From Branchiostoma floridae (lineage: Eukaryota; Chordata; Leptocardii; Amphioxiformes; Branchiostomatidae), in contig NC_049979.1 in assembly GCF_000003815.2 (NCBI RefSeq), forward strand, positions 3,125,353-3,189,352: a DNA stretch of 64,000 nt, read 5' to 3'. Shown one piece after another: positions 527 through 63,525 of the stretch. The stretch's first letter is position 1. Each line of letters opens with the position of its first letter. Under the pieces are notes generated by a model. The model saw only the letters and a list, made by a program, of their open reading frames with translations. It had not been told where the DNA came from and ran no database searches. The position numbers and the translations under genes were made by a program.

Positions 527-3500
527 CTGCAGGTCACGTGGGAGGGGAGAGAAGATTATCGTTCCTCACATTTTCTTTGCAAGTTTCCACAAGTTTCAAA
601 TTCAATAAGTGTAGCAATAAAAACTATTGCCATGGCGATGGTTTTATCATTTATAAGTTTTAATCATTGTTGTTGTAGGTGTGTTGCATGTTTGTGTTCT
701 ATGCTTTCGCCTACTGTATGTACGAAGATTGTTTTACACGATGGATGTTTGTAGGGCATTGCTGTTATATTAACAAGAAAGGCCTTCTCTTGTGACGAGT
801 GACCTATCATAAATGTTTCTCATTGATTATACAAACGAGGTTCTCAAAAAAGCTATAACTTGAAAAGAAGTCACTTGTAAAGGAGTGCATCTACATGTAA
901 CCCTCTCAGCTTTCCACCCAATATATAGTAATGTTGGCATCACACAGCAGCAAAATAGCTCGCCCAATCCAACTAGTCTGTGAGCTCTGACTGGACATTT
1001 TCAGCACCAATATAGTCGGCGTATTCTTGTTCGGTGTGCAATTTTTGTCGTTGTTTGCAGGTGACTAAGATCAGTTGGAAGCGCGGTGTGAAGCCTTAAG
1101 CAGCAGCAGTATAATCAAATATGGATACTACTAGTACCTTCTTTGGTCAGTACTGACCATAGTAAAATCTTAGTTGATATCAACCGTACAGCTTCTGCTA
1201 TGTCTAAAGAGTCCTATGCCAGAACGACAGTCTCTACCACATAGGTCACATCTGTAAGCTAACTCATGAGTCTTTTGCAAAGTTCTTTTCTCTTGATCAG
1301 TCTGGCTTCTCCTAATTTTAGCTGCCTGGACAGTGCGCATGGACACTATAATATATAAGACATGTAGTTCTCTCTTTCTGTATCCATATTATATATTGAG
1401 CTTGAGAAAGCATGCAAACAAACAAACAAACAAACAAACAAACAAACCAATGTTCCATGCCAGGATCCTCCTGTCCGCTGACAGAACAGTGGAGCCCACA
1501 GAGGGAGTTGTTTTGTACGTCTGGATCGGGCCCCTGGACAGAAGACAAGACAGTTTACAGTAGTGGTAAAATGTTGCACAGAAGTTTATGCACATGCAAT
1601 TAACCAATGAAGGCCTGCAAAAGTAGATAGAATGTTCCTATAGCTCAACTGGTAGAAGCCTTACAGTGGAGCTCTTGGTTCCATTTGGCTGGACCTGATC
1701 GGCTCAGCTCTTCTCCTTTGGAAGGGACATAAAATAGGGGTCCCATATGCATCTTTGAGGAGTTGCCCAGAGCACGCATGTTGAAATGGGAAGGGCTAAC
1801 AATCCCTCCCTTTACACGACTTTCCTTGCTCTACCCAGGTGTAAAACGGCTACCTGGCTTTGTTTGGAGAGGTACATGTAAAAGACATCCGTGTTGGAAA
1901 ATCGTCTGATCCTGAAAAAAAGTTCCCCTCCGACCCTTCTATAGAAACTTGCTGACCAATGTGCAACTAGGCACAAAAAGGGGAACAACACAACAACAGG
2001 CCTGCAACATCTAAATGTACAAAATGTAGTTTGCTATTTAGATTTAAGCTATAAAACAGGACCTTCTATCAGACACCATCATCAGGGTAGAATGACTGGA
2101 AACTACTTGTTGCTGCTACTTAGTACTCCCTGGTTGTGCCTAAAGAACCTTAAGGTACTATATGAATAATTGCGAACCTGATGAAGTTATTTACGGATGT
2201 ACAAAATGCAGTTTGCTATGGAGATTTAAGCTATAAAACTGGTCCTTCTGGATGGTGCTCATCATCATCATCAGTCACTGGGTTCTGCATCTCACCTGTT
2301 GTAGAACGGGATCTGAAGCTCACAGAACTCGAAGTGGTTCTTGACCTTGGAGCCCAGCTTGAGTTGCACGAGGAGCTTCACCTTGTTCCCCTCTCCCTGT
2401 GGCAAAAGGAAAGATTGCAGTACCACTGAATCCGCCAGGGGGCTCAAAATCTGAATATCTTGTTTATACAATGTGTGTCAGTCGTTCCCTAAGTTTTCAG
2501 AAAAACGAAGTGGATGGGCCTAAAATAAATTGCACATACAGCGGGTTGTGCCCTTAGCTTCACTCACCCTCATCTGGTAGTACCCCCTGATGGGCAGCTC
2601 GCGGACCTGTGAGGTGTAGTGGCACAGCGTGATCATGTGGAGGGGCGGCGTGAAGCGCAGCTTGTACGGGCCCATCGTGGCCGTCTGGTGCTGCGCAGAG
2701 CTCGCACAGTTGTTCAGGATCTGCAGGAAGTGTGAAAGTAAAAACATTAGCATGTTAATAGAAGAAACCAACAACAACAAAAACAGAAACTTCCTTTCCT
2801 TCCATTCAGGTCGCATGACATAGGCCTCAAGTAACTTCAACCTGCCACCAGGTTAGTAACCTTGTTTTTTTTCTTACGTATGCACCTGGCCTATGAAAGC
2901 AAGGACATGCTGTACTATGCTCAATCGAGCCCATAACACTGAGGAAGAGACACGGTGAAACATGTTTGTTGTGTGTTGGTTCGAATAAAGTTCCTAGACG
3001 GGGAACATGCGGCTCCGGTGTCTTTTCTAAGGATGTGGCGTAAGTGTGAACGGTTGGCTTGAGGTTGTCCTTCTCCACATACTCTTGTTTTCTACTTTCT
3101 CTACAAAAACATGGCATAAATCTTAAATTACTGTCACAGATGAACTTTCATTAGATATTTCCTTTCCTGTTATCATAAAGCTAAAACAAGATGCTTGCTA
3201 TAATGTCAATGTCGAACCACATTTAATGTCGGGAAGAACCCCTTCATCCTCAGCATGACCCCATCACAACCCCTAACCCCAGCATGACCCCATCACAACC
3301 CCTAACCCCAGCATGACCCCAGCACGACCCCTGACCCCCAGAATGACCCCTGACCCCAGCATGACCCCAGCATGACCCTGACCCCCAGCATGACCCTAGC
3401 ATGACCCCTGACCTGTGTGTCAGTGCTCTGCACACAGGGGTGCACCAGGATGTTCTCCAGGGGTTTCCCCAGGGGTGGGGCCGGCAACGACAGGTTCACC

Positions 3501-6500
3501 GTAACGTCTGGCATCACCCCTTCTAGCTCCGTCTGCAAGTAAACAACAACAATAAACAATAACAACAAACAATAAACAACAGTCCAAAATGTTTAGCAAG
3601 GGGCAACGACAGGTTCACTGTCACGTCTGGCATCACCCCTTCTAGCTCCGTCTGCAAGTAAACAATAACAACAACAAACAGATAAACAACCGTCCATAAT
3701 GCTTAGTGAGGGGCAACGACAGGTACACTGTCATGTCTGGCATCACCCCTTTTAGCTCCGTCTGCAAGTAAACAATAACAACAAACAATAAACAACAGTC
3801 TGTAATGTTTCTCAGGGGTGGGGCAGGTAACGCTTGGGTTCCTGTAAAAACCGGGGCCCCGCGGGGCCGCGACGGGGCCCCGTCGGGGCCCCGTACGGGG
3901 CCCCGTTTGCGGAGTGACTTGAAAAAAAAAAACTAGTTTTGGATTTCTCACCATGATTTCCCACCAGCATTTCTCAGCAGGATAATCAAAATACATTGAT
4001 ATTAATCATTAATATAATAATCATTGTGTAATAATCAAAATACATTGATATCAGCCGCACGTTGCGTCGTTGCCGAGTCCATAGTTCCTGCGTGCACGAA
4101 TATGCTGTATCGTAAACTGTTACGGCATCAACAACAACGAGCGTGTGGCGTATGACAATCTATCGGTTTAAATTTTATATTCTGTGCATAGAAATTTTTG
4201 GTAAGTTTCGGCTGACTTCGATTTTGGGGTTCCTTCCGACGGACGAGGGCTTTAATACTGGTGAAGCGTTCCGCCAGGTTGATCTTGCAGTGGGGGTGGC
4301 GAGAAATTAATAAGATAAGACAGTCGGTCTCATCCCACGTAAAATTACCCCGCTAAATCTAACTTTACGTGTATCTCCATATATTCAATATATATTGCGT
4401 AACATATTTAACGTGATAGACAAACTGTATTCATTTATTGAATTGTCTAACTCTTATTATTATAAGACTCTAAAGTCTACCCCCAGATAGTGTGGTATCA
4501 TGACAAAACTGCCCATCTATCGGCGTTGTTCAAAGCTCCACATGTTGGTTATGCCGCTGACTTTCGGTGCTGGTTTGCGATCCACTCCAATTTTTCGGCA
4601 TCCTAACCTGTATTGGGTTACGCACCCCGACCTTGAGGTCGACCTCGGACATCTGCACGGAACATGAAAAGTTAGAAAAGTGCGTAATGAATAACAGAAA
4701 ATACGGTACATGTGTGCATTGAGTCTGAATCCGTACCGCCCCCCGATTGCGCAATTCATTTTGGCATGATTAGCTTCGCGTAACATGATACATGCAGCCG
4801 TGGGAAGCCAGAGTTGCCTGCCCTGTGTGAGGCACTGTGTGCTCCTCCCACTTCCGACTCATGTTGCCGCCCGCTGCATATGAATGGTGCGTTATTTTAG
4901 TCAGCGTCATCTTTGAAACCCTGACTCCCTGGCTAGTCAGAAACCGGCAACGCTGACTCGTCAGAAATAGGTCCCTGACGCGTCATTGACACAGTATCTA
5001 AAACTTCATATAATAATATGATGATGATATAAGACTATGGTGATTACAATATTTTAGCAAGCAAAATTGGCCATTTTGTGTTCACCATGCATATCCATGT
5101 GTAACAACACTCAACATGTTTTTTCAACTCAATTCATAGCATACAGTTACCTGTGTGTTTGGTGTCCATAAAAATGTGTAGTAGCCTTATAAGTTATACC
5201 AGTGTAGGTTCATGTAGTTGTACAACACACCTATGTATTATAATGACTTCTACCAACACAGATAAACTTTCAAGATAACACCTATTTATGTGTACACTGT
5301 AAAAATGAAAGGAAAATTGAGTGCAGCATGTTAGCATGCATGAACCTGAATTGTCTAGCATTACTGATTAACTACACCCTGGGTGCCAAGAAGAATGCTA
5401 TCCCTAACCATATCTATCTACACAGTATCCAAGCTCACGGACAGTGTTAAAATGGATGATATACACATTGTGTGTAATACATGTAATATGCATATACAAT
5501 TATACAATTATTATATTACTACTGCAGACAACAACAACAGCAGTAGTAGTTATTATAGTTTAGTAGTAGTACCCAGTCTTTAGATGTTAAGACCAATATA
5601 TGATCTTTTATACCTATGCCTATACTGAGTGTTTCCTACGGTGGTGTGTCAAGTTGATAATAAACTCCTTTAAAGTATAAGAAAGACTGCTGTGATCATT
5701 CACATAATATTATGATAATAAGGACCTACATGTACACTAATATGAAGCCTTCCTGACAGCGTCCTTGGTTCTAGTACACTCAGATCCATGTACCAAGAAG
5801 CAGAATTTTTTTTTTCCGACCACTATGTGATCCCTTTTTCATTAGTTTTTGGTTCCTTTCCTCCACAACACCCCCCACTAATGATGTATACATCAATAGA
5901 AAGCTAAGAGTCTCTACTTTCTAGAAATATCATGCAGGTTTCAGTGTCAGTAGTATGATGTACAAGGTCAATAATTCAATAAAACATCAGTTTTGTGATC
6001 ATTGTATTACAGTATCCTAAACTATGTCAAAATTCCTGACATGTCCTGATAACATCGATTACATACACGAGAAAAGATTGTACCCAGGTATGACTACTGG
6101 TGAGTTAGTGACTACAGACTGTCATGGGTGCTGAACTGACTACTAGTATTAGGCTGTTCAAAACAAATTGGATGGGGGGTTGAAGAGCTTGGATTTTCTA
6201 CTTTCTGACTTCCCTTTCATTATTATCCTAGTACCTTGACCCCCTTTCATTTCATCCATATCCAGGTGCCTTGGCCCCTTAAAAATTTTATCCAAGTGAC
6301 TTGACCCCCTATAATTTCATCCAAGTCCAGGGTTTTCTTCTTTCAAGTTCTTGTAAACCCCCTTCAATCCAAAGCCAACAAAATCCACTCCCACTAACGT
6401 AAAATCCGACCTCTTCACCCCCCCCCCTCCTCAGTTATTTTTTGAACGGCCCATTTCAGCTGAAAGGCTTATCTATTTCAACATGATGTTCTCCTTTCTG

Positions 6501-15500: not shown

Positions 15501-18500
15501 TAATCTAAACTAATCATCAATTGCTTGGGATTGTTTGCTAACGATCAAGTGATGAAGTGATAGATATGATCAAGGGTTCTAGTACGGCAATGAATCCATT
15601 CATGCATTTGTTATCTCTCATCCAGTGAATCCTTTATTCTTTCACTGACTCACCCACTACCTCCCTCCCNNNNNNNNNNNNNNNNNNNNNNNNNNNNNNN
15701 NNNNNNNNNNNNNNNNNNNNNNNNNNNNNNNNNNNNNNNNNNNNNNNNNNNNNNNNNNNNNNNNNNNNNNNNNNNNNNNNNNNNNNNNNNNNNNNNNNNN
15801 NNNNNNNNNNNNNNNNNNNNNNNNNNNNNNNNNNNNNNNNNNNNNNNNNNNNNNNNNNNNNNNNNNNNNNNNNNNNNNNNNNNNNNNNNNNNNNNNNNNN
15901 NNNNNNNNNNNNNNNNNNNNNNNNNNNNNNNNNNNNNNNNNNNNNNNNNNNNNNNNNNNNNNNNNNNNNNNNNNNNNNNNNNNNNNNNNNNNNNNNNNNN
16001 NNNNNNNNNNNNNNNNNNNNNNNNNNNNNNNNNNNNNNNNNNNNNNNNNNNNNNNNNNNNNNNNNNNNNNNNNNNNNNNNNNNNNNNNNNNNNNNNNNNN
16101 NNNNNNNNNNNNNNNNNNNNNNNNNNNNNNNNNNNNNNNNNNNNNNNNNNNNNNNNNNNNNNNNNNNNNNNNNNNNNNNNNNNNNNNNNNNNNNNNNNNN
16201 NNNNNNNNNNNNNNNNNNNNNNNNNNNNNNNNNNNNNNNNNNNNNNNNNNNNNNNNNNNNNNNNNNNNNNNNNNNNNNNNNNNNNNNNNNNNNNNNNNNN
16301 NNNNNNNNNNNNNNNNNNNNNNNNNNNNNNNNNNNNNNNNNNNNNNNNNNNNNNNNNNNNNNNNNNNNNNNNNNNNNNNNNNNNNNNNNNNNNNNNNNNN
16401 NNNNNNNNNNNNNNNNNNNNNNNNNNNNNNNNNNNNNNNNNNNNNNNNNNNNNNNNNNNNNNNNNNNNNNNNNNNNNNNNNNNNNNNNNNNNNNNNNNNN
16501 NNNNNCACTGGGCAGACAAAGAAAACTCAAGAACTGGAGCAAGCCTTGGTCACGATGCAAGGATACAAATTTAGCACTTGTACAATCACCCATCACCACA
16601 GGCTAATTTAACACCCCCCTTATTACATTGATGTTAAGATTGTCTCCTTGATTACAGGTCTAACCCATATGGGCCTATAAATATACAGCTGCCACACAGA
16701 TCATTCCTGTAATGAAGTCCTGAAATATAGTTATGTCTCTGTTAAGCTCATTGAATACTGGGCTAAATTTAGCTGCCACACAGAAGAAGATCATTGTGTA
16801 ATGAAGTCCTGAAATACCGTTGAAGAGGTTCATCAGTCACGTATGCATACAGTTATAACAATTTTCTTCAATTTTCGCAAGAACTGAGACTAGCTCATTC
16901 CCCTTGATGAAGATGTGCTGGTAGACATTGAAAATTTGGGAGGTATGTACTGTACCTTTACAAAACAGTCATTGATTGAAGAAAATTGTTATAACTGAAA
17001 TACAGTACCATTACATGTATTTGGCCAGGGCTCGAAATACTCCCAAAAGGTCTGAAATCTTGAACAATAACAAGCAACTGTTTCTTCACAACCCAGACTT
17101 AAACTTACAGCCAACGTTTTGCTGACTTTCCCTCTTCCACTGATCAGTATTTTACAAAAGGTTAACACTATCTTCACCCTAATTGTTACCATAGCTCTAA
17201 CCCTACCCCTTACCCTTACCATAATCTTGACCCAAGCCCTAAACTTTACCTTAAGGTATCTCGGTTGGCTAAATTGGCATTTTGACCTTCCACTGCTTTC
17301 TTATTAATGAATTAAGAACGAATAGAGCCGTAACGAATGTTGATAGATGGGCATGAAAGATTTCTAAATCTGATTTTTTTGGGGGCCAAATTGATGACGT
17401 CATCATTTTCATTGCCTCTGTTTTTATTTTTCTATGACAAAATACAGCACTTTGGTACATACCACTGTAATGAAACTTCGTTTTTCGTTGTATAATGATG
17501 AAAGCTACAAACTCACGGTTGTGCAAATTGATATCTACTAATGATCTGTAGTAATTAGAAAATGTTTGTTTTCATCTAAGATACCTTAACCTAATCCTAG
17601 CCTACAAGTCTAACCCTAAACTTTACTCTAACTCTTACCCTTACCCCTAACCCTACCCCACTCTACCTTATTGCTACTCGTGTTCGGTCCCAGTTCTTCA
17701 ACCCTAACCCTAACCCTAACCCTAACCCTAACCCTAACCCTAACCAAAACCATAACCCTAACCCTAACCCTAACCCTAACCCTTACCCCTAACCCTAACC
17801 CTTACCCCTAACCCTAGCTCTACCCTACCTTATTGCTGGTCCTGTTCAGTCCCAGTTCTTCCACCAGTGCATTACAGAAAGCCACGTCGTCCAGCATCTG
17901 CACAGTGTTGCCTCCTCCCCCGGTCAAGATGGCCGCCCGACGCTCCACCGTTGGGTAGTGGCTGCAAGAGGAAAGTTGCACTGGAGTTACGTGGAGACCG
18001 GTTGTTCGGTTAAATTAAGTTGGTATATAATTTGAAGGTACTAGTCCAGAGATCACCTCTGCATAACGTAAGGACCACCTGGTCATTGATATACAGTGAA
18101 GTCTGTACACAATTGACCACCTCAGTACATAAAAACCACCTGTCCATTGATATACAGCTAAACCTGTACTAGTGACCACCTCTACATAAGGACCACCTGG
18201 CCATTGATATACAGTGCCAGTTTTGCAGCTCGGGGCGGAAAAAAATTTTGCCCATCCCGTCCTTTGTGATGGACAAAAATCAATGTGTAAAGTTAGTAAA
18301 GATATAAAAAAAAAACTGTCTCCCCTGTGTAATTTGTCACCAAAACAGATGAACAGCTTACTAGTAGTCTACCAGCAAAATTTATACCTCAAAATGCTGG
18401 AAATAGCATTTCATGAAGGTTTCAAAATTTTCCTGGGGAGCATGGCACCGGACCCCCCTAGGAACGTTGCGCATTCGGCTCAACAGCATTCAAAATAAAA

Positions 18501-25476: not shown

Positions 25477-28400
25477 GTAGGCAAAAATTTATTAGGGCAC
25501 GGTATCACCTGGACGCTTCGACACCTTGATGCATCGGTCCCTAACCGATCAGGACAGCTTGCCAACAGGTCTAAGCTAGTACGACCAAGCTCGTGTTAGA
25601 ATTTGGGTTCTGGTCGAGCTAGAATTGTCTAGAAACAGCCCTCCAAAGCCTAAAGCCCAAAGGCATAATTTGTGCCGAATCAACCTGATCGGCTAGTGGC
25701 CGGACTGTCCAGTTTAGGTCGACTTTTACTGTGCACTGACCCACCTAAGACATGTTTGCCTGGCCCCATTCTTTACCATCCCGCATTTTGGTGAAAACGC
25801 GATTAAGCCATTTCACAGGGCACGCTGCCATGGCAACGCCACGTCCAAGGTTGAGTTGACAGAGGTTATAGGTTTGGAAAACTTTGGAAAAGCTCACTGC
25901 AAAGAATTGCATACAGCATCAAGGAGGTTTTTTTTACCTCATTGCATGCAGCAAGGACTTGCATACATACATTTATACATCTGCACACACGCCTACTGCA
26001 ACCTACAATTTGTCTCAGAAAATTGCAGAATCTGTCAACCCGAATTTGTCAAAATTATGGAGAATGTCATGTTAAGTTCCTCATCCAAGAGCACAAAATC
26101 GTTGTTGGTGACACGACACGACAGGATTTGAACCCAGGACCTCTGGATTCTGGGCCTAACACCTTGTTGTTACTGTTAGGTAACATAATGGTTATAACCT
26201 GAAGTTTTTATCTCCTAGTGAAGATTAGCCTGGATTCCATACCCCAACCTCAAGATATATCTTTCGTGTTTTTTTCCATACCCCAACCTCAAGATATATC
26301 TTTCGTGTTGGCACGATAGATACTTGAGATCGGGCTGGGGTTTGGTAAGGCTTAGGTCACATTTCCAAAGCGAGGCCCGGCCGGGATGTTTTAAGAAACG
26401 AAAGATTAAAATGTATACCTAGAAATATACACATATCATGCCTATGAATCTTATTTTGACATTCTGTGCAATTTGATGTATTTTATATAATTCTTTTCGC
26501 TCCCGAAAGCTGCCCGGCCGGGCCCCGCTTTGGAAATGTGACCTAAGCCTTACCAGGCTAAGTGAAGATAGAAGCACAGCAATATTTTTATAGTATTGAT
26601 TTGTTCTTTGCCAGCATCACTTACCTCCTTTACTTAAGTATTTAGCTAGGCGCTTAAACACAATTAGTGGGCTGATATGGGGAAACCCTGCAGTAATGAG
26701 GGTCTGCATAGGGGTCCTGACAACGCTTTACGCTAAATTCGGGATGGCTGGCTACGCTTTACATTAATTCATGAAGGCCACCATTTGGCCCACCAACACT
26801 TTAGGCTTCGTCCCCACTGCGAATTACGTAAAATAAAATAGCTTCCCTACGTCTGTAACAAGGCTGTACAGAACACACAAGCTGCCATATGTTGTGATGA
26901 CTGCAATAGATGGTATCACAAAGATTGCATTGGGCTATGTTCCCAGGTATACACTGTATTAGAAACCCACAAATCATACTCATGGATATGCTGTGACTGC
27001 GGCACACCAAACTTTGCATCAGACATGTTCGACATCACTGATGACAGCTTCCATTCGGTAAATTCATTTGATACGCTGAACCCAAGTTTACTAGGTGACA
27101 CACCGGCGGCAACATCCACCCCACTTAGATCAAAGCAGGGGAAAACTCACACTAGAGGTAATAGCCACAAAAAGAACAAGGCTAAACTCCTGCTGGTAAA
27201 CTGCCAGAGTGTTCGAAATAAAACTGCTGAATTGGCAACTGTGATTGACACTTATAAACCAGACATATTAGTGGGCACAGAGTCATGGCTTAATGAAAAT
27301 ATATCAAGCAGTGAAATATTCCCTGACAACTACATAGTACACCGTAAAGACAGAAAAACTGGCCCAGGAGGTGGTGTATTTCAGGCAAACAGGGATGATC
27401 TGATTGTCACCCACAGACCAGATCTGGACACAGACTGTGAGATCATTTGGACACAAACCCAACTTGCAGGAAAGAAACCGCTAATGATTGGTACATACTA
27501 CAGGCCGCCGTCGGACAAGGGCAATAGTCTGGATGAGCTTGACAGCTCTATAAATAAAGTGGGAACTAAGATAAACTCCGACAACGTAATTATTCTTGGA
27601 GATTTTAACATCCCTGGTATTAATTGGGATGCTAGCACAACAGACAACGCTCAGAACCATACAGGACAGGCACAGAAACTACTACACTTAGTGGACAACC
27701 ATGGGCTATTCCAAACAGTTCAGGAACCAACTAGAAATGGTAATCTTTTGGACCTGGTATTAGTTAATAACCCAAACATAATTGAAAAAACCACAGTTGT
27801 TCCGGGAATAAGTGACCATGACATGGTTCTAGTGGACGTAAACTTGGCACCCAAACAGAACAAAAAACCAAAAAGGAAAGTGTATATTCGCACCAAATCT
27901 GACGAGCCGGCTATCAAGAATGACCTTGAGGACTATGCAACAAACTTTAACATGAGAACAAAAGACATGTCAGTGGCACAGAAATGGGATGACTTCAAAA
28001 GCAAAATGAAGCACACAATGAACAAGCACATTCCTAGTAAAATGACATCAAGCAGATACAATCTACCTTGGTTTAACAGAAACTTAAGAAGGCATTGTCG
28101 GAAGAAGCAACGTCTTTACAATAAAGCTAAGAGAACAGGACAAGAGGAAGACTGGAACAAATATAAGAAAGTAAAAAAAGGAGTTCAGAAAAGCATTAGA
28201 TCAGCACACTCAAAATACGTGGCAAACATACTGGGAGAAGCTATAACTGACAAACCCAAAACATTCTGGTCATACATAAAAGGCCTGAGGAGAGACCTTG
28301 TCGGGGTAGCCACTCTAAAGGTGGGGAGTACCATTATCAGTGACAGTGAGAAAAAAGCAGAGGCACTCAGTTCACAGTTTAAAAGTGTATTCACAGAAGA

Positions 28401-31400
28401 AGACACTACAGACATGCCATCCCTCGGGAATCCCTGCACCCCTCCTATGGAACAAATAGAAGTTTCTACTTATGGTGTTGAAAAAATGTTGCAAGGCCTC
28501 AATCCCTCCAAAGCATCCGGGCCAGACCAAATACCTCCTTGGTTCCTCAAAATGACAGCCAGTGAAATCGCACCTGTTTTAACCAACATTTTCCAACAAT
28601 CGCTTGACACAGGAGAAATCCCCAAAGACTGGAGAGATGCAAATATATGCGCCATTTTCAAAAAGGGAGATAGAGCGATCCCTAGTAACTACAGACCTGT
28701 TTCACTCACAAGTATTTCCTGTAAACTACTGGAACACATTATCCACAGCCATATCATGAAACACTTAGAAGGCCACAATATACTAACGGACTACCAGCAT
28801 GGTTTCAGAGCAAAACGATCCACAGAAACACAGCTTATTTTAACAGTTCACGACATAGCTGGGGCACTGAACAATAAAAGACAGGTGGATCTAGCAATAC
28901 TCGATTTCACTAAAGCCTTCGATAAAGTCCCACATAGCAGACTCATATCAAAACTGGAGTTCTATGGAATTCAAGGTACTACACTTAACTGGCTGAAGGC
29001 TTTCCTGACGAATAGAGAGCAAACGGTAGTGGTGGAAGGGAAGGCCTCAGCTCCAGTTAAAGTAGCGTCGGGAGTTCCACAAGGGACTGTGCTGGGACCA
29101 TTGCTCTTCCTCTTGTACATAAACGACTTGCCAGACCAGCTCGATTCAAGTGTGAGGTTATTCGCCGATGATTGTCTGTTATATATAGAGGTATCCACAC
29201 AAAATGATTCACAAGTTCTTCAGAAAGATCTGAACACCCTGGAAGAATGGCAAAGGAAATGGCTTATGCAGTTCAATCCTGATAAGTGCTATATCATGCA
29301 CATAACGAACAAACGAACACCAAAAGTGTCCCCTTACCAGTTTTGTGGTCAGACATTAGAAACCACAAAAACCCACCCATACCTGGGTGTTACATTAACA
29401 ACTGGGCTGAAGTGGGGTGTCCATGTTAACAAAATAACAACCAAGGCTAAACAGACATTGGGAGTAATCAAACGCAACCTGTGGGCATGTCCAACCAGGG
29501 TAAAATCACTTGCATACACGTCACTAGTAAGACCTAACCTTGAATATGCCGCTACAGTATGGGACCCGTATACAAAGAAAGACAAAGATAAACTTGAAAG
29601 GGTACAGAACCAAGCTGCCCGATTCTGCACAAACAACTATAACAGGGATTCTAGTGTTACCAAAATGAAAACAGATTTGCAGTGGATGTCACTTGAAGAT
29701 AGAAGGAAAATGTCCAGACTTTCCATGATGTACAAAATGACTAATAAACTGGTGGACGTACCAACTGATAAGTATCTAATACCAGCTCAGAAAAGAACAA
29801 GAAACAGTCATGCATTCAAATACCAGAGTTACCAACCTAGGATTGATGTGTTCAAAAATTCGTACTTTCCCAGAACTATCGTAGAGTGGAATTTGTTATC
29901 ACCAAGTACAGTAGGGGCATCTTCTCTGGGTAGTTTTAAAGAACGCTTGCAGATAGATGTGCAAAAGGTAGGTGTAATGAGTCATTCGGTGTAATATAAA
30001 CAGCTGCTGCCGCGCCGCGTGCCTGCGAAGCTGGTGTGTTACGCCGAACGGCGGTTATACCGGCTATATAGATACAGATACAGATACAGAATTACGGGAA
30101 ATTAAAAAAGGCCTGCCTAGTCGCCTTACAGGAAAGAGCATGCAGACCCTCAGTAATGGCCATTAACTCCAGTTTAACTGTAAGGTCATTTTTCATCCAC
30201 TGGAATTCCTCAAGCATGAAGTCATGATGAAGCTCTAAGTGAGTATGGAGTGTTGATGATGACCAGACCCAGGGGATTGTAAGCTCCAAAGCAGTTGTCT
30301 ACTGCTCTGGCTTGTTTTGTACTTTTATACTTGTTGAGATCTACTCAATCATATTAAAGTACTATATACATGTAGGTGTATGTGAATTGTTATAAGTTGC
30401 AATGGCTGTTACAACCTATGAAGTATAAAAGAAAATATAGCAATGGTTTCTAATCAATTTTAGTATGATCCATACTTTCTAAATTCAAAGTGGTGTAGGT
30501 AACTAAAGTTTGTCTGGTGCAGGTAATTTTCAATGTTCAGTCCTCCTGCAAGCTTTCACCCTACAAGTCAACTAGGGTTGGTGACTGGTGAGACATAATG
30601 TTATATACTGCTGAAGAATTGCCAGGAATCTGTTATTATTGGCTTTGTGTGTGAAGCCAGACAAAAGGTTTTTGTGTCATCTGTTTCACAGTAACACCAT
30701 GTGCACAGGGATAGGTATGGTACAGACAGAGCAGAGGGCACATATGGAACTCATCCTTGTGAAAAACGTAGTGGTTTAGAACAGAAGCATATCTTGTATG
30801 AAAGGAATTGAACTTGACACTTGTAGCTGCACAGGTGTGACACATTACACCTCCATGATTACGAGGAACTGGTTTCAATGAGAAGTAACCCGACCTGCCT
30901 CCTTATCTTACAGGTATAATTTGTCTCAAGGTAAATCTTGAAGCAGATGTGGGAAAGGCTATAGCTAGTAGAAGTAAATTCTTACATGTATGTTTTTCTC
31001 CCCGACATCTGCTTGAAGATCTCAAGCTATCAATGCTGCAATCTACATGTATCCATCTATTGACCTGTTGTCTGGACTAATCTAGTATGTGCTTTGTTCT
31101 GCCAAGCAATGTTTTTCATCTGTCATCAGTATTGATCCTGAAGAAGGCAACAGTGGTAATTGGAAATTTGATTTTTTTAATCGATCCATGTCTACTTTTA
31201 TGTTGGAAGAAAGTTTTAAAGCTTTGTACTATGATTATAATAAATTATTACCAACACAGATGGGCTTCCAATATGATAATATTTTTCCAAGTTCACATAG
31301 TGTCTCCAGTTAAAAAGTCAAACTTCTGCAATGGACTAGGCCTCACAGTTTCCACTGGAGGAAATTTTACTCAACAGTGAGTGGGCTTAGCTTCTGAGAC

Positions 31401-53504: not shown

Positions 53505-53604
53505 NNNNNNNNNNNNNNNNNNNNNNNNNNNNNNNNNNNNNNNNNNNNNNNNNNNNNNNNNNNNNNNNNNNNNNNNNNNNNNNNNNNNNNNNNNNNNNNN
53601 NNNN
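53505..53604. other. Assembly gap (100 N)
   Basis: Exactly 100 N, likely an unknown-size gap; it cuts the pseudogene copy that starts at 53174. Confidence 0.97.
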
Positions 53605-54125
53605 CGGATTTTGCAAGTGCACTATAGGGAACCTGTGAGAAAAAGAGTTGAAACCAACATGGCAAGCGGTGAGCAACATAGTATAAATATTTTAAATGCA
53701 TCACTTTAAATGGAGTATAACTGATAATCGATTATCAATCCAATGGCGAGTTCATGAAGGAATCAACACTGGCATGTCAGGTGAGTAGGACGGAAATAAA
53801 CACTCGGTAGGATAAGGATAGTTCCTATGCGGTAGCATGCTACTTTAATTTTGGTCATGTACGAACTATTCCCTGTGCTCATCAGACTTCGATAATCACT
53901 GTTTATGTACAGATGTTCCAAAACAAAAAGTATGAAAGGTACTTCGAAAGGTTGAAATCGGTCCATAACTAGGAGTCATCAATTATCTAACAATTTCCAA
54001 ACGGAGTCATCTTGATTATCAAAACCTGGTAGATTCGTATATCATGTTCTTGAGTCGTGTAATATTGTGTTATATCCATTTCATACCTTCATTGCTAATT
54101 TCGGAATCTGAATGATCATTCTTAC

Positions 54126-54190
54126 CTGAAAAGATGAGCTTGCTTGGCGGCTTCGAACCCCACCGAGAGCTGTAGCTGTGCGTTCTTCTC
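54126..54190 (-). CDS. Candidate internal exon of an unidentified minus-strand gene
   Basis: Flanked by a polypyrimidine-poor CTTCAG| acceptor and a strong |GTAAGA donor. In phase 0 it reads EKNAQLQLSVGFEAAKQAHL then F and a split codon; another phase is also open. It lies 8 kb downstream of the 62198-62657 exon on the same strand, but that exon ends in phase 1, so the two do not join in the better-looking frame. I do not recognise the protein. Confidence 0.4.
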
Positions 54191-54507
54191 CTGAAGTTTA
54201 AAGAATGGTTTAGGAAATGGTTTGAAAAAATGCTACATAATCAATAATAATACACAAATAAAACAGAAAGTTGTAAAATGTTTGCAGCATAAAAGAGTAG
54301 CTTGTAGTAATGTGTTGCCATTTATCATAAAATATTTCGATATGTTTTAAAAGTATTTTAATACTTACAGTTCTTAAAAGAACTGGTAGAGGAAGACATT
54401 GATGAATCACATACGGCAAATATAATCAGTCATTACCCCCCCTGGACATCAGCCACCTGCCCGCGTTTCTGCCTGCATCACAACCAACACAGGTGGAAGG
54501 GGTCTAC

Positions 54508-54845
54508 CGAAAGTGCGAAAAGGAACGAAAAGGAACGAAAAGGAACGAAAAGGAACGAAAAGGAACGAAAAGGAAAGAAAAGTAACGAAAAGGAACGAAA
54601 AGAAACGAAAAGGAAAGTACCGAAAGTGCGAAAAGGAACGAAAAGGAACGAAAAGGAACGAAAAGGAACGAAAAGGAACGAAAAGGAACGAAAAGGAACG
54701 AAAAGGAACGAAAAGGAACAAACGTTCCTTTTCGTTCCTTTTCGCACTTTCGGTACTTTCCTTCTCGTTCCTTTTCGTTCCTTTTCGCACTTTCGGTCCT
54801 TTCGCACTTTCGCTACCGAAAGTGCGAAAAGGAACGAAAAGGAAG
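54508..54845. repeat. GAAAAGGAAC minisatellite, left foldback arm (internally palindromic)
   Basis: 10-bp units GAAAAGGAAC to 54720, then the reverse complement to about 54812, then forward again. Larger units start ACCGAAAGTGCG. Palindrome centres near 54722 (AACAAACGTT) and 54812. Open frames reading KERKGTKRNE are by-products. Confidence 0.93.
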
Positions 54846-55986
54846 GAAGTATGAAGCAAACTAAAATAAAATCAATGAGAATATAAGGAACCGGTACTGC
54901 GGGCGTTAGAAGCCTATGAAACATGTTTTAAAACGTGTTTTATTTTAGAATTTGGCAATATGATTTTTTTATGGCGCTGTTTTAGGCGGTTGTGTTTGTG
55001 TGGCTAAATTATTCTCTGAAGATCAGCGAAATACAAGGAAACAGAACTGAGATAAGAAAGTAAGGACTAAAATTCAGTTACTGGCGGGTGATTATATTAT
55101 GATAAATATCGATTAACGTACATTTTCAGAATGAGGCAAGATTGTAGCGTTGCTGTTGTATTTGGATGGCTTCTGTTCTCCCAAGATGGGAGCACCGCAT
55201 GCAATTCTTGCGATTGTTTACGTCTAATAGAAATCCGGCCTGGAATGATATGCTAATAAACTGCTGCCCCACTAGCATTACAGCTCCCTTCAACAGGGCC
55301 CACAACATGTTTTTCTGGAGACTGGAGACATATCTTCTTGCTCGTTTACGACAAAAGAAAAGGTGTGAAAGGATAGGCATGTATACACTATAGTGATTGT
55401 ACCAAGGAGCTTTCATCACGTTGTACCATGAGTATTCATAATTTTGGCGGGAAGAAAGGACAACGTGAAGAATTTGTGCAAAGGATATTGGGAAACTACG
55501 GAGAGATTTGGCCGTTGACTCACGTCTCCCGTGCGGGTTCGACAGAAAAAGTCTTTGGAACCAGACCTCGAATTGAAATCAACGCGGTGTCCCGATTGCC
55601 CGGGGCCACATATAATTTAGGCCGGGACCACTAGAAAACGACTTTGTGACATTTTTGAGACCGTAGAAAAATAATCTACACCAGAATGTCAACCCGTTTT
55701 TCAGGCGCGCTACTCAGCGGCTTTTACCCCCCTCCCCCCGAATTTGATCTGTGACAGCCCGCGTGGGAACCCGAGACGCACTGATTCGTGACTCCGCCCA
55801 TCGCCTTTGATTTGTATTTAGCTATTTCCACGCGTGCACTTTCCCGCTGGTTCGCCGTTTAACCATTGGAGCTCTAGGAATTTCGTGGAACAAGTCGCAA
55901 AATGCAAAAATAAAGTCCGTTGCAAATGCATTTGCCGATCACCAGTGCGTTACCTTATATTCCCATCGATTTTATTTCACTTTGCT

Positions 55987-56086
55987 NNNNNNNNNNNNNN
56001 NNNNNNNNNNNNNNNNNNNNNNNNNNNNNNNNNNNNNNNNNNNNNNNNNNNNNNNNNNNNNNNNNNNNNNNNNNNNNNNNNNNNNN
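55987..56086. other. Assembly gap (100 N)
   Basis: Exactly 100 N at the inner edge of the right minisatellite arm of the foldback element. Confidence 0.97.
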
Positions 56087-56332
56087 CTTTTCGCACTTTC
56101 GGTACTTTCCTTTTCGTTCCTTTTCGTTCCTATCCAATCTTTTCGTTCCTTTTCGCACTTTCGGTACTTTCCTTTTCGTTCCTTTTCGTTCCTTTTCGCA
56201 CTTTCGGTACTTTCCTTTTCGTTCCTTTTCGTTCCTTTTCGTTCCTTTTCGTTCCTTTTCGTTCCTTTTCGCTCCTTTTCGTTCCTTTTCGTTCCTTTTC
56301 GCTCCTTTTCGTTCCTTTTCGCACTTTCGGTA
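56087..56332. repeat. GTTCCTTTTC minisatellite, right foldback arm
   Basis: Reverse-complement units of the left arm, with CGCACTTTCGGTACTTTCC spacers, running out of the N gap to the element end. Point variants include GCTCCTTTTC. Confidence 0.93.
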
Positions 56333-56337
56333 CACCG

Positions 56338-57779
56338 GGTGGAAGTATGGGAGATGTACGACAGGTTGCAGAAGGTACGTGTGCGGAAGGCGGCCGGCCC
56401 GGACAACATCACGGGGCGGTTGATAAGGGAATTTGCATATGAACTCAGCCAGCCACTGACGCGCATCCTAGCTGAATACATCCCTGCACGAAGGCCGTGT
56501 TCCCAGGGAATGGCGGGAAGCAACCGTCATTCCCATCCCCAAAACAAAACCCCCGACTGTGGAAGATCTCCGACCAGTCTCGCTAACCTCTACATTAGCA
56601 AAGGTGTGCGAAGGATTTGTCGCCAAGTGGACATTGTCAGACATCATCCCCAACATCGATCCTAAACAGTTTGGCGGACTACCTGGGAAATCAACAACAC
56701 ATTGCCTGGTGGATATTCTAAACCATATCAGTTCTACCTCGGACCGGAGAGGAACACTTAGCAGCATTGTTCTTACCGACTTCTCCAAGGCATTCGATCG
56801 TGTTGAGCACACGACCGCGATAACAAGGCTGTTGGAGTTAGGCTGCAGACCGTCACTGATCCCTTGGATATGTAACTTCCTAACTGAGAGGCGACAACGT
56901 GTCTTGTACCAGGGTTCCTATTCAGTATGGGAGGTACTTACCTGCGGTTTGCCACAGGGCACTGTTCTGGCACCAATCATTTTCATAGCCATGATTAACA
57001 GCGCCGCCAAAGGTACACGATCGGAAAACTGGAAGTTCGTAGACGATCTTTCAAATTCAATGATTGAAAGCAGACTCTTACATGAAACATCACTCCTGCA
57101 GCACGACCTCAATGTCCTAGAACAGTGGACTTCCGACAGTCACATGAAGCTGCACCCCAAAAAATGCATGGTTATGCATGTGTGGTTCACAAAAGTTCCA
57201 CCTCCCCTTCCAACGTTATATATTGATGGTCATCCCCTTCAGCAAGTCACTTTTGCCAAGCTGTTAGGGGTGATAGTGCAGTCCGATCTGAAATGGAACG
57301 CCCACGTGAACCACATCATCAGTCAGAGTAGCAGACGACTCTTCCTACTACGCCACCTTAAAAGATTCAAACTCCCTGTACCTGACCTGGTGACTGTGTA
57401 TATAACCTATGTGCGTCCTCTGTGCGAGTATGCCTGCCCTGTGTGGAGTCCTGGGCTTACATCAACACAACCAGCCCAGATAGAGAACATTCAGCGCCGT
57501 GCCTGTCGTATAATCCTCGGTAGATGCTATACAAGGTACTCGGAAGCATGCAATCAACTGGGGCTACCAACTCTCCAGCAAAGACGTGAACAGCTTACTG
57601 TGAAATTCTGCTGCACCTTGTTGCAATCCAGAACATTCAGACAGTGGCTCCCACCACCCCGAGGCGAAACCAGTGGGCGACTCACCAGATCACACGGCAA
57701 ACTGACCACTATCAGTGCCAGAACAGAGCGATATAAGAACAGTACAATTCCGCACATTGTCAGACTACTGAACTCATAG
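56338..57779 (+). pseudogene. LINE reverse transcriptase (frameshifted, interrupted)
   Basis: First frame 56338-56480: KAAGPDNITGRLIREFAYEL. After a one-base shift: EWREATVIPIPKTKPP, LRPVSLTSTLAKVCEGF, QFGGLPGKSTTHCL, LTDFSKAFDRVEHT, GLPQGTVLAPIIFIAMINS, then catalytic FVDD (KFVDDLSNS, unlike the usual YADD/FADD) and the thumb region FAKLLGVIVQSDLKWNAHV. The uninterrupted part (406 codons from 56559) has no stop. CR1-like by motif style. Confidence 0.85.
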
Positions 57780-63049: not shown

Positions 63050-63525
63050 GCCCCACGACGTATGTCTATGATTCTCAAACTGACAACATACAATTGACGA
63101 ATCGCTGGGAAAAATGATGCCCCACGACGTATATTTAACGTTATGTCTATGATTCTCAAACTGACAACATACAATAATTGACGAATCGCTGGGAAAAATG
63201 ATGCCCCACGACGTATGTCTATGATTCTGAAACTGACAACATACAATTGACGAATTGCTGGGAAAAATGATGCCCCACGACGTATGTCTATGATTCTCAA
63301 ACTGACAACATACAATTGACGAATCGCTGGGGAACATGTTGCCCCACGACGTATGTCTATGATTCTCAAACTGACAACATACAATTGACGAATCGCTGGG
63401 AAAAATGATGCCCCACGATGTATGTCTATGATTCTCAAACTGACAACATACAATCGACGAATTGGTGAAAAAAATGATGCCCCACGACGTATGTCTATGA
63501 TTCTCAAACTGACAACATACATCAG
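63050..63525. repeat. 69-bp minisatellite, seven units
   Basis: Unit begins GCCCCACGACGTATGTCTAT and contains CTGACAACATACAATTGACG. Units start at about 63050, 63119, 63203, 63272, 63341, 63410 and 63479 (last partial). Unit 2 is longer by 12 + 3 bases. Because 69, 12 and 3 are multiples of three, two minus-strand frames stay open for over 200 codons (23-residue repeat with VCCQFENHRHTSWGIIF). Confidence 0.93.

Follow-up and report, generated by a model that had tools for sequence, protein, structure and literature searches.

A probable foldback transposon family with 10-bp minisatellite arms in the amphioxus Branchiostoma floridae

Short tandem repeats, one of them with a 10-bp unit, build the arms of Drosophila Foldback (FB), which makes 9-bp target duplications; the TU elements of the sea urchin have short arm repeats and 8-bp duplications, and Galileo makes 7-bp duplications. 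Foldback elements have been named from Drosophila, Chironomus, rye, Arabidopsis, and sea urchin (PMC4079207). The repeats of Galileo hold extra transposase binding sites (PMC3688188), and its copies have been described as exchanging with one another and as causing chromosome inversions in Drosophila (PMC3573991). In the hAT element Hermes, the BED domain of the transposase binds short repeats that lie within the ends (PMC10368747). The present analysis concerns a comparable element in a 64,000-nucleotide stretch of Branchiostoma floridae (assembly GCF_000003815.2, contig NC_049979.1, positions 3,125,353 to 3,189,352, forward strand), hereafter called the window. The element, 1838 bp at 54500–56337 with 100 of them N, interrupts a long interspersed nuclear element (LINE). 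It was read as belonging to a family of non-autonomous cut-and-paste DNA transposons of the foldback type, with a probability of roughly 0.8, because its copies have defined ends and 8-bp duplications and are dispersed in the genome, because an empty site exists in LINE paralogues, and because the arms vary, arm-only copies carry duplications, and the interior occurs in both orientations.

The element and its insertion site

The first-pass annotation, made from the letters of the window, had described a foldback DNA element with arms of a 10-bp minisatellite in opposite orientation, a second inversion inside the left arm, an 8-bp duplication on both flanks, and a LINE frame restored by excision. 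All of these features were recovered, and the ends, duplications, and dispersed copies of such an element were found genome-wide. The parts of the window copy are as follows.

54492–54499, plus strand: left target-site duplication GGTGGAAG, an uninterrupted single copy in the empty LINE paralogues L048–L050
54500–54517, plus strand: left terminus GGGTCTACCGAAAGTGCG, 18 bp, with 153 exact genome copies (reversed control 0)
54500–54854, plus strand: left arm, 355 bp, of 10-bp units CGAAAAGGAA interspersed with repeated terminal motifs TACCGAAAGTGCG
54723–54812, minus strand: inverted block within the left arm, with similar blocks in several other copies
54855–54888, plus strand: left inner inverted-repeat domain, 34 bp, 30/34 identical to the reverse complement of 55953–55986
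54855–55986, plus strand: interior, no coding match, 98.9% identity to the 1132-bp interior consensus over 1124 positions
55953–55986, minus strand: right inner inverted-repeat domain, pairing with 54855–54888
55987–56086, no strand: 100-N assembly gap inside the right arm
56087–56337, minus strand: right arm, minisatellite in opposite orientation
56320–56337, minus strand: right terminus, CGGTGTACCGAAAGTGCG when read inward, with 142 exact genome copies (reversed control 0)
56338–56345, plus strand: right target-site duplication GGTGGAAG
56346–57779, plus strand: host LINE beyond the element, reverse transcriptase (PF00078, E 1.7e-23 over 56472–57779)

The 8-bp duplication GGTGGAAG was exact on both sides of the element (54492–54499 and 56338–56345). 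When the element was removed together with one target copy, the LINE read TQVEVWEMYDRL in a single frame across the join, the host copy itself being out of frame further along. A query made from the joined flanks matched 11 places in the genome, two of which were the window's own pieces. The junction was spanned by six of the 11 matches at 91–95% identity and by a seventh at 71%, and the three matches that were read (L048, L049, and L050) held one unbroken GGTGGAAG without an insert.

The element has long inverted terminal repeats composed of internal tandem repeats, as elements of the foldback class do. The sequence GAAAAGGAAC occurred exactly 16 times on each strand of the window, every time within the element. 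The two sides of the element belong together, because their inner domains agree at 30 of the 34 positions and the score of 48 exceeds the highest value, 35, from 500 dinucleotide shuffles. Folded as single-stranded DNA, the left arm reached −101.26 kcal/mol (z −14.71), and none of 100 shuffles was as low. By comparison with related copies, about 13–23 bp, not 100, would be missing at the gap. No Rfam match at the gathering score was obtained in 53600–57500. A 20-base arm motif had no match in viral contigs and two in genome contigs, both from Anoxybacillus, which were taken as chance.

A dispersed family with variable arms and interiors

The B. floridae assembly that was searched comprised 513,431,437 bases in 431 contigs. 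The exact 18-bp left end was present at 153 places and the right end at 142, and the reversed controls gave 0. Positions were listed for the first 100 of the 153 left ends (to early C14) and the first 100 of the 142 right ends (to C14). A partner among the listed right ends lay no more than 30 kb from 62 of the listed left ends (one right end serving for two of them); 59 of these pairs were spaced 121–1950 bp and three were at 3201, 3829, and 4685 bp. Thirty-five elements were then measured, picked because they resembled the window copy or because their ends paired, which favours complete copies. L004, L010, and L026 had one end only and were left out of the measuring, and L029 and L030 repeat L005 and L006. 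Exact 8-bp duplications flanked 28 of the 35 copies, and three more (L021, L022, and L034) had a duplication with one mismatch. The further copies with 8-bp duplications for which a genome check had been advised in the earlier annotation were thus present, as was a genome-wide family with the ends that it had named.

Looser searches added little. A search for ends without the usual following unit gave four matches, three of them at ends already known. A 12-base end diverging afterwards gave 36 matches, compared with 172 for its reversed control; no left–right pair within 30 kb was seen among the 36, and two adjoined known ends as mutated partners. In L022 (3448–3930), the left end and its flank were apparently duplicated in inverted form, and the outer flank recurred, diverged, past the inverted end and beside an N gap; this arrangement reflects either a genuine inverted duplication or the joining of haplotypes.

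The length of the arms varied between copies, as it does in foldback elements. Left arms measured 45–355 bp and right arms 56–351 bp, each among 18 copies (one right arm with a gap), and the right arm of L019 reached 570 bp, containing a gap and other DNA. L013 and L016 differed at 4 of 1176 interior positions and had left arms of 96 and 136 bp, that is, seven and eleven units; L005 and L023 differed at 8 of 951 positions and had left arms of 285 and 45 bp. The arms therefore changed in steps of about 10 bp while the interiors stayed nearly identical, as shown by the 40 bp between the left arms of L013 and L016. The expansion and contraction by slippage proposed in the first-pass annotation was thus borne out as to the change in length, which was seen between near-identical copies, and slippage would be one way of producing it. 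The left arm of the window copy, 355 bp with its inverted block, exceeded those of the eight copies of the young group described below (76–245 bp) and matched the arm-only copy L006 at 90.5% over 317 bp; exchange between copies, as in Galileo, would explain this arm.

Arm-only copies with exact duplications were found at 367 bp (L006), 333 bp (L027), 148 bp (L035), 171 bp (L036), and 202 bp (L037), and a copy of 121 bp had a duplication matching at 7 of 8 positions. Given the exact duplications around copies as small as L035, L036, and L037, short ends are apparently enough in cis. Of 62 arms, 36 contained the terminal motif TACCGAAAGTGCG two or more times. Neighbouring terminal motifs on the same strand lay 10n+3 bp apart in 45 of 70 cases (33, 43, 53, 143, and others), and a second series of spacings, 62 and 72 bp, accounted for 14 cases.

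In an alignment of 14 gap-free interiors, eight copies formed a young group with a mean pairwise identity of 0.981, which contributed the most rows to the interior consensus matched by the window copy; five other forward copies were 92.5–94.4% identical. Orientation was scored for 27 copies, of which 20 were forward, two had no interior, and five (L009, L019, L031, L032, and L033) had an interior inverted relative to the ends. The inverted-type interiors matched the consensus only over about positions 1–634, at 82–84%; L009, L019, L031, and L033 also matched a short stretch near its far end, and the remainder had no match in it. L009 and L019 were 94% identical over 1293 bp; because each has its own site and its own duplication, the turned form has transposed. 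In L059, which is flanked by the exact duplications CTCCAGAG, an interior of the L009 type (91% identity over 1335 bp) runs the opposite way and follows a second, incomplete copy and a gap. Therefore, one type of interior stands both ways round between the same ends, which strengthens the case for a turning of the interior and leaves the odds of the readings discussed here unchanged. An open frame of 140–198 amino acids recurred in copies of the L009 type (L031 3944–4366, L032 2996–3418, L033 577–1173, and L059).

Two explanations without a transposon were weighed against these data. The arms are true tandem arrays of variable length, as would be expected of an ordinary minisatellite grown in place within the LINE; such growth is refuted by the empty site and the dispersed copies, which have constant 18-bp ends, an interior of some 1.1 kb in common, and duplications in 28 of 35 cases, and it retains next to no probability. 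The 100-N gap in the right arm would likewise suit an assembly artefact in which two unrelated loci were joined. The inner domains, however, match across the gap, the duplications match, and gap-free copies share the plan, 24 of 31 elements holding no N, so that an origin of the arms from unrelated loci, named beforehand as the finding that would overturn the element, has hardly any chance of being correct. In amphioxus, "mirage" minisatellites are tandem copies of intron–exon boundaries (PMC3087553, PMC3902484); identity with them was rejected.

The source of the transposase

No transposase was visible in any copy read; the first-pass annotation had seen none in the window copy. Three translated frames of the window interior matched nothing in Pfam at E up to 1. 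Among three frames of L031, two had matches with E values of 0.11 and 0.12, which fall short of the cut-offs, and its frame of the 140–198-amino-acid type likewise had no Pfam match above a cut-off. In L032 and L033, which with L031 are the three longest of the listed spans, most of the additional length consists of N (198–2404 and 1505–3202), and a gene could lie inside these runs. Elsewhere in the genome, transposase domains were located at 33 hAT places (dimerisation domain), 3 Merlin, 3 P-like, and 27 Mutator-like element (MULE) places. Their distances to the family ends were measured on C1–C13, where the end lists are whole, C14 being partly covered and C15–C19 and the small contigs lying outside. 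The 23 hAT places on C1–C13 were all more than 95 kb from an end. A search for arm units in 12 of 14 transposase loci that were read gave, in L045, one lone match of 10 bases with at most one mismatch; L044 and L045 each had a solitary end motif with three mismatches. L045 also contains a separate hAT-like element (536–4388) with an 8-bp duplication GCCTTCTT and ends TAGTGGTGCGTACC.

The superfamily was judged from the target sites and the ends. The pattern nTnnnnAn preceded 36 of the 153 left ends, compared with about 13 expected from flank composition (p 3.6e-8). At 27 exact sites, six duplications fitted this pattern, compared with 0–4 at shifted positions; the consensus of these sites, S-T-T-W-A-A-A-S, was weak, 22 of the 27 starting with G or C, and the commonest letters at positions 3–6 were T, A, A, and A, without a CCGG core. 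The 8-bp length, exact in 28 of 35 copies, is that of hAT elements. The ends of hAT elements usually begin with CAGNG or alike, and those of the family, GGGTCTACC and CGGTGTACC, do not. P elements also make 8-bp duplications and prefer the site GTCCGGAC, with T at position 2 and A at position 7. Because P elements share T2 and A7 and because the ends are unlike those of hAT elements, the family was not filed under hAT. The label "hAT-like" given in the first-pass annotation therefore stands in part: the duplications and a modest nTnnnnAn bias agree with it, whereas the starts of the ends and the lack of a hAT place near any listed end do not. An autonomous hAT with these ends, which had also been suggested, was not among the six hAT loci read. 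On this evidence a hAT-like transposase is somewhat favoured, the P or Mutator superfamily or another being the source otherwise.

The other superfamilies were considered on the same data. Mobilisation by a P-superfamily transposase would fit both the 8-bp duplication with T2 and A7 and the precedent of Galileo, which is foldback-like, has internally repeated long ends, and includes P-superfamily transposase sequence (PMC3573991, PMC3688188). It is nevertheless unlikely, as the duplications have no CCGG core, the genome gave three P-like matches, of which the nearer of two on C1–C13 lay 77,934 bp from a listed end, and neither of the two P-like loci read had the family ends. A Mutator-like transposase has been proposed for most foldback elements, and Mutator usually makes target duplications of 9–11 bp. 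In the present family, 28 of 35 copies have duplications of 8 bp, none of the 21 MULE places on C1–C13 (27 in the genome) lay within 149 kb of a listed end, and none of the four MULE loci read had the family ends; this source is accordingly regarded as improbable.

Several observations weigh against the reading as a foldback transposon moved by a hAT-like enzyme. By exact 18-mers, 38 of the 100 listed left ends and 39 of the 100 listed right ends were unpaired, partly from the lists ending at C14. Four of the 35 measured copies (L025, L028, L032, and L039) had duplications that disagree at two or more positions; one of these is the arm-only L039 of 359 bp. A transposase was sought in the long spans and none was found among the copies read, and L031, at 4685 bp, had no gap-free open frame over 140 amino acids. 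The 23 hAT, 1 Merlin, 2 P-like, and 21 MULE places on C1–C13 were at nearest 77,934 bp from any end. None of the 14 loci read (six hAT, two Merlin, two P-like, and four MULE) had the family ends, although the stretches may stop short of the transposons' own ends. No autonomous partner was present among the places examined, with ends on C1–C13 and the N runs unread; given these runs and the contigs outside the end lists, an autonomous copy could have been overlooked. As for target preference, the excess of nTnnnnAn falls to p = 5e-5 against a background of 0.12, two of the 36 ends belong to one palindromic locus, L022, and 117 of the 153 left ends are without the pattern. Finally, the ends start with GGG and CGG, unlike the usual ends of hAT elements.

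In the mechanism proposed, a transposase supplied in trans would bind the terminal motif and its arm repeats, the arms being arrays of putative binding sites by analogy with Galileo and Hermes. Arm length would shift by slippage or unequal exchange, and exchange between inverted arms may have turned the interior round, after which the turned forms would have transposed. A fuller version is put forward tentatively, as possible but doubtful: a hAT-type transposase would act on arms that grow as arrays of binding sites one helical turn apart, and recombination between the arms would turn the interior, both orientations being competent for transposition.

Elsewhere in the window, about 21 copies of AACCCT (85% matches), a vertebrate-type telomere repeat, lay at 17700–17827, internal to a long contig. 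An open frame of 1050 amino acids at 26842–29994 resembled by eye a LINE protein with endonuclease and reverse transcriptase, and a tandem array of a 69-bp unit (5.5 copies, 93% matches) was present at 63142–63521.

Comparison with known foldback elements

The FB and TU elements have short arm repeats, as the amphioxus family does, a likeness of description and not of sequence; the duplication of FB is 9 bp, compared with 8 bp here. In the literature on foldback elements and amphioxus transposons, judged by titles and the openings of abstracts, no description of this family was met. As far as these searches go, it is a new family of a known foldback kind, a judgement made from the literature. 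Its value lies in being a chordate family whose repeat unit is 10 bp and some of whose copies are young: where nearly the same interior stands between unlike arms, the rate and steps of arm change become measurable, and the copies form an unusually clear natural record of arms growing, shrinking, and flipping and of an interior lying both ways round. Because Galileo copies cause inversions, the copies of the family are candidate rearrangement breakpoints in amphioxus.

Hermes resembles the family in its 8-bp duplications, its nTnnnnAn preference (a modest bias in amphioxus), and its left and right ends differing at two bases, and differs in having 17-bp inverted repeats and a transposase gene, the amphioxus ends starting with GGG and CGG and no such gene having been found among the copies read (PMC10368747). 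Galileo, of the P superfamily in Drosophila, shares foldback-like long ends, arms whose length varies through tandem repeats, copies of two ends only, and chimeric subfamilies; it differs in that some copies have transposase sequence and that its repeats are about 210 bp (PMC3573991, PMC3688188). Tetris of Drosophila virilis is likewise non-autonomous, with long inverted ends that hold internal tandem repeats and an inner domain; its target duplications of 8–10 bp and its ends shared with a miniature inverted-repeat transposable element (MITE) were also counted as likenesses, whereas its tandem unit is about 220 bp, compared with 10 bp in amphioxus, and the two are likened by description and not by sequence (PMC4079207). 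On the best reading, therefore, the plan of the amphioxus family is like that of Drosophila Foldback, Galileo, and Tetris.
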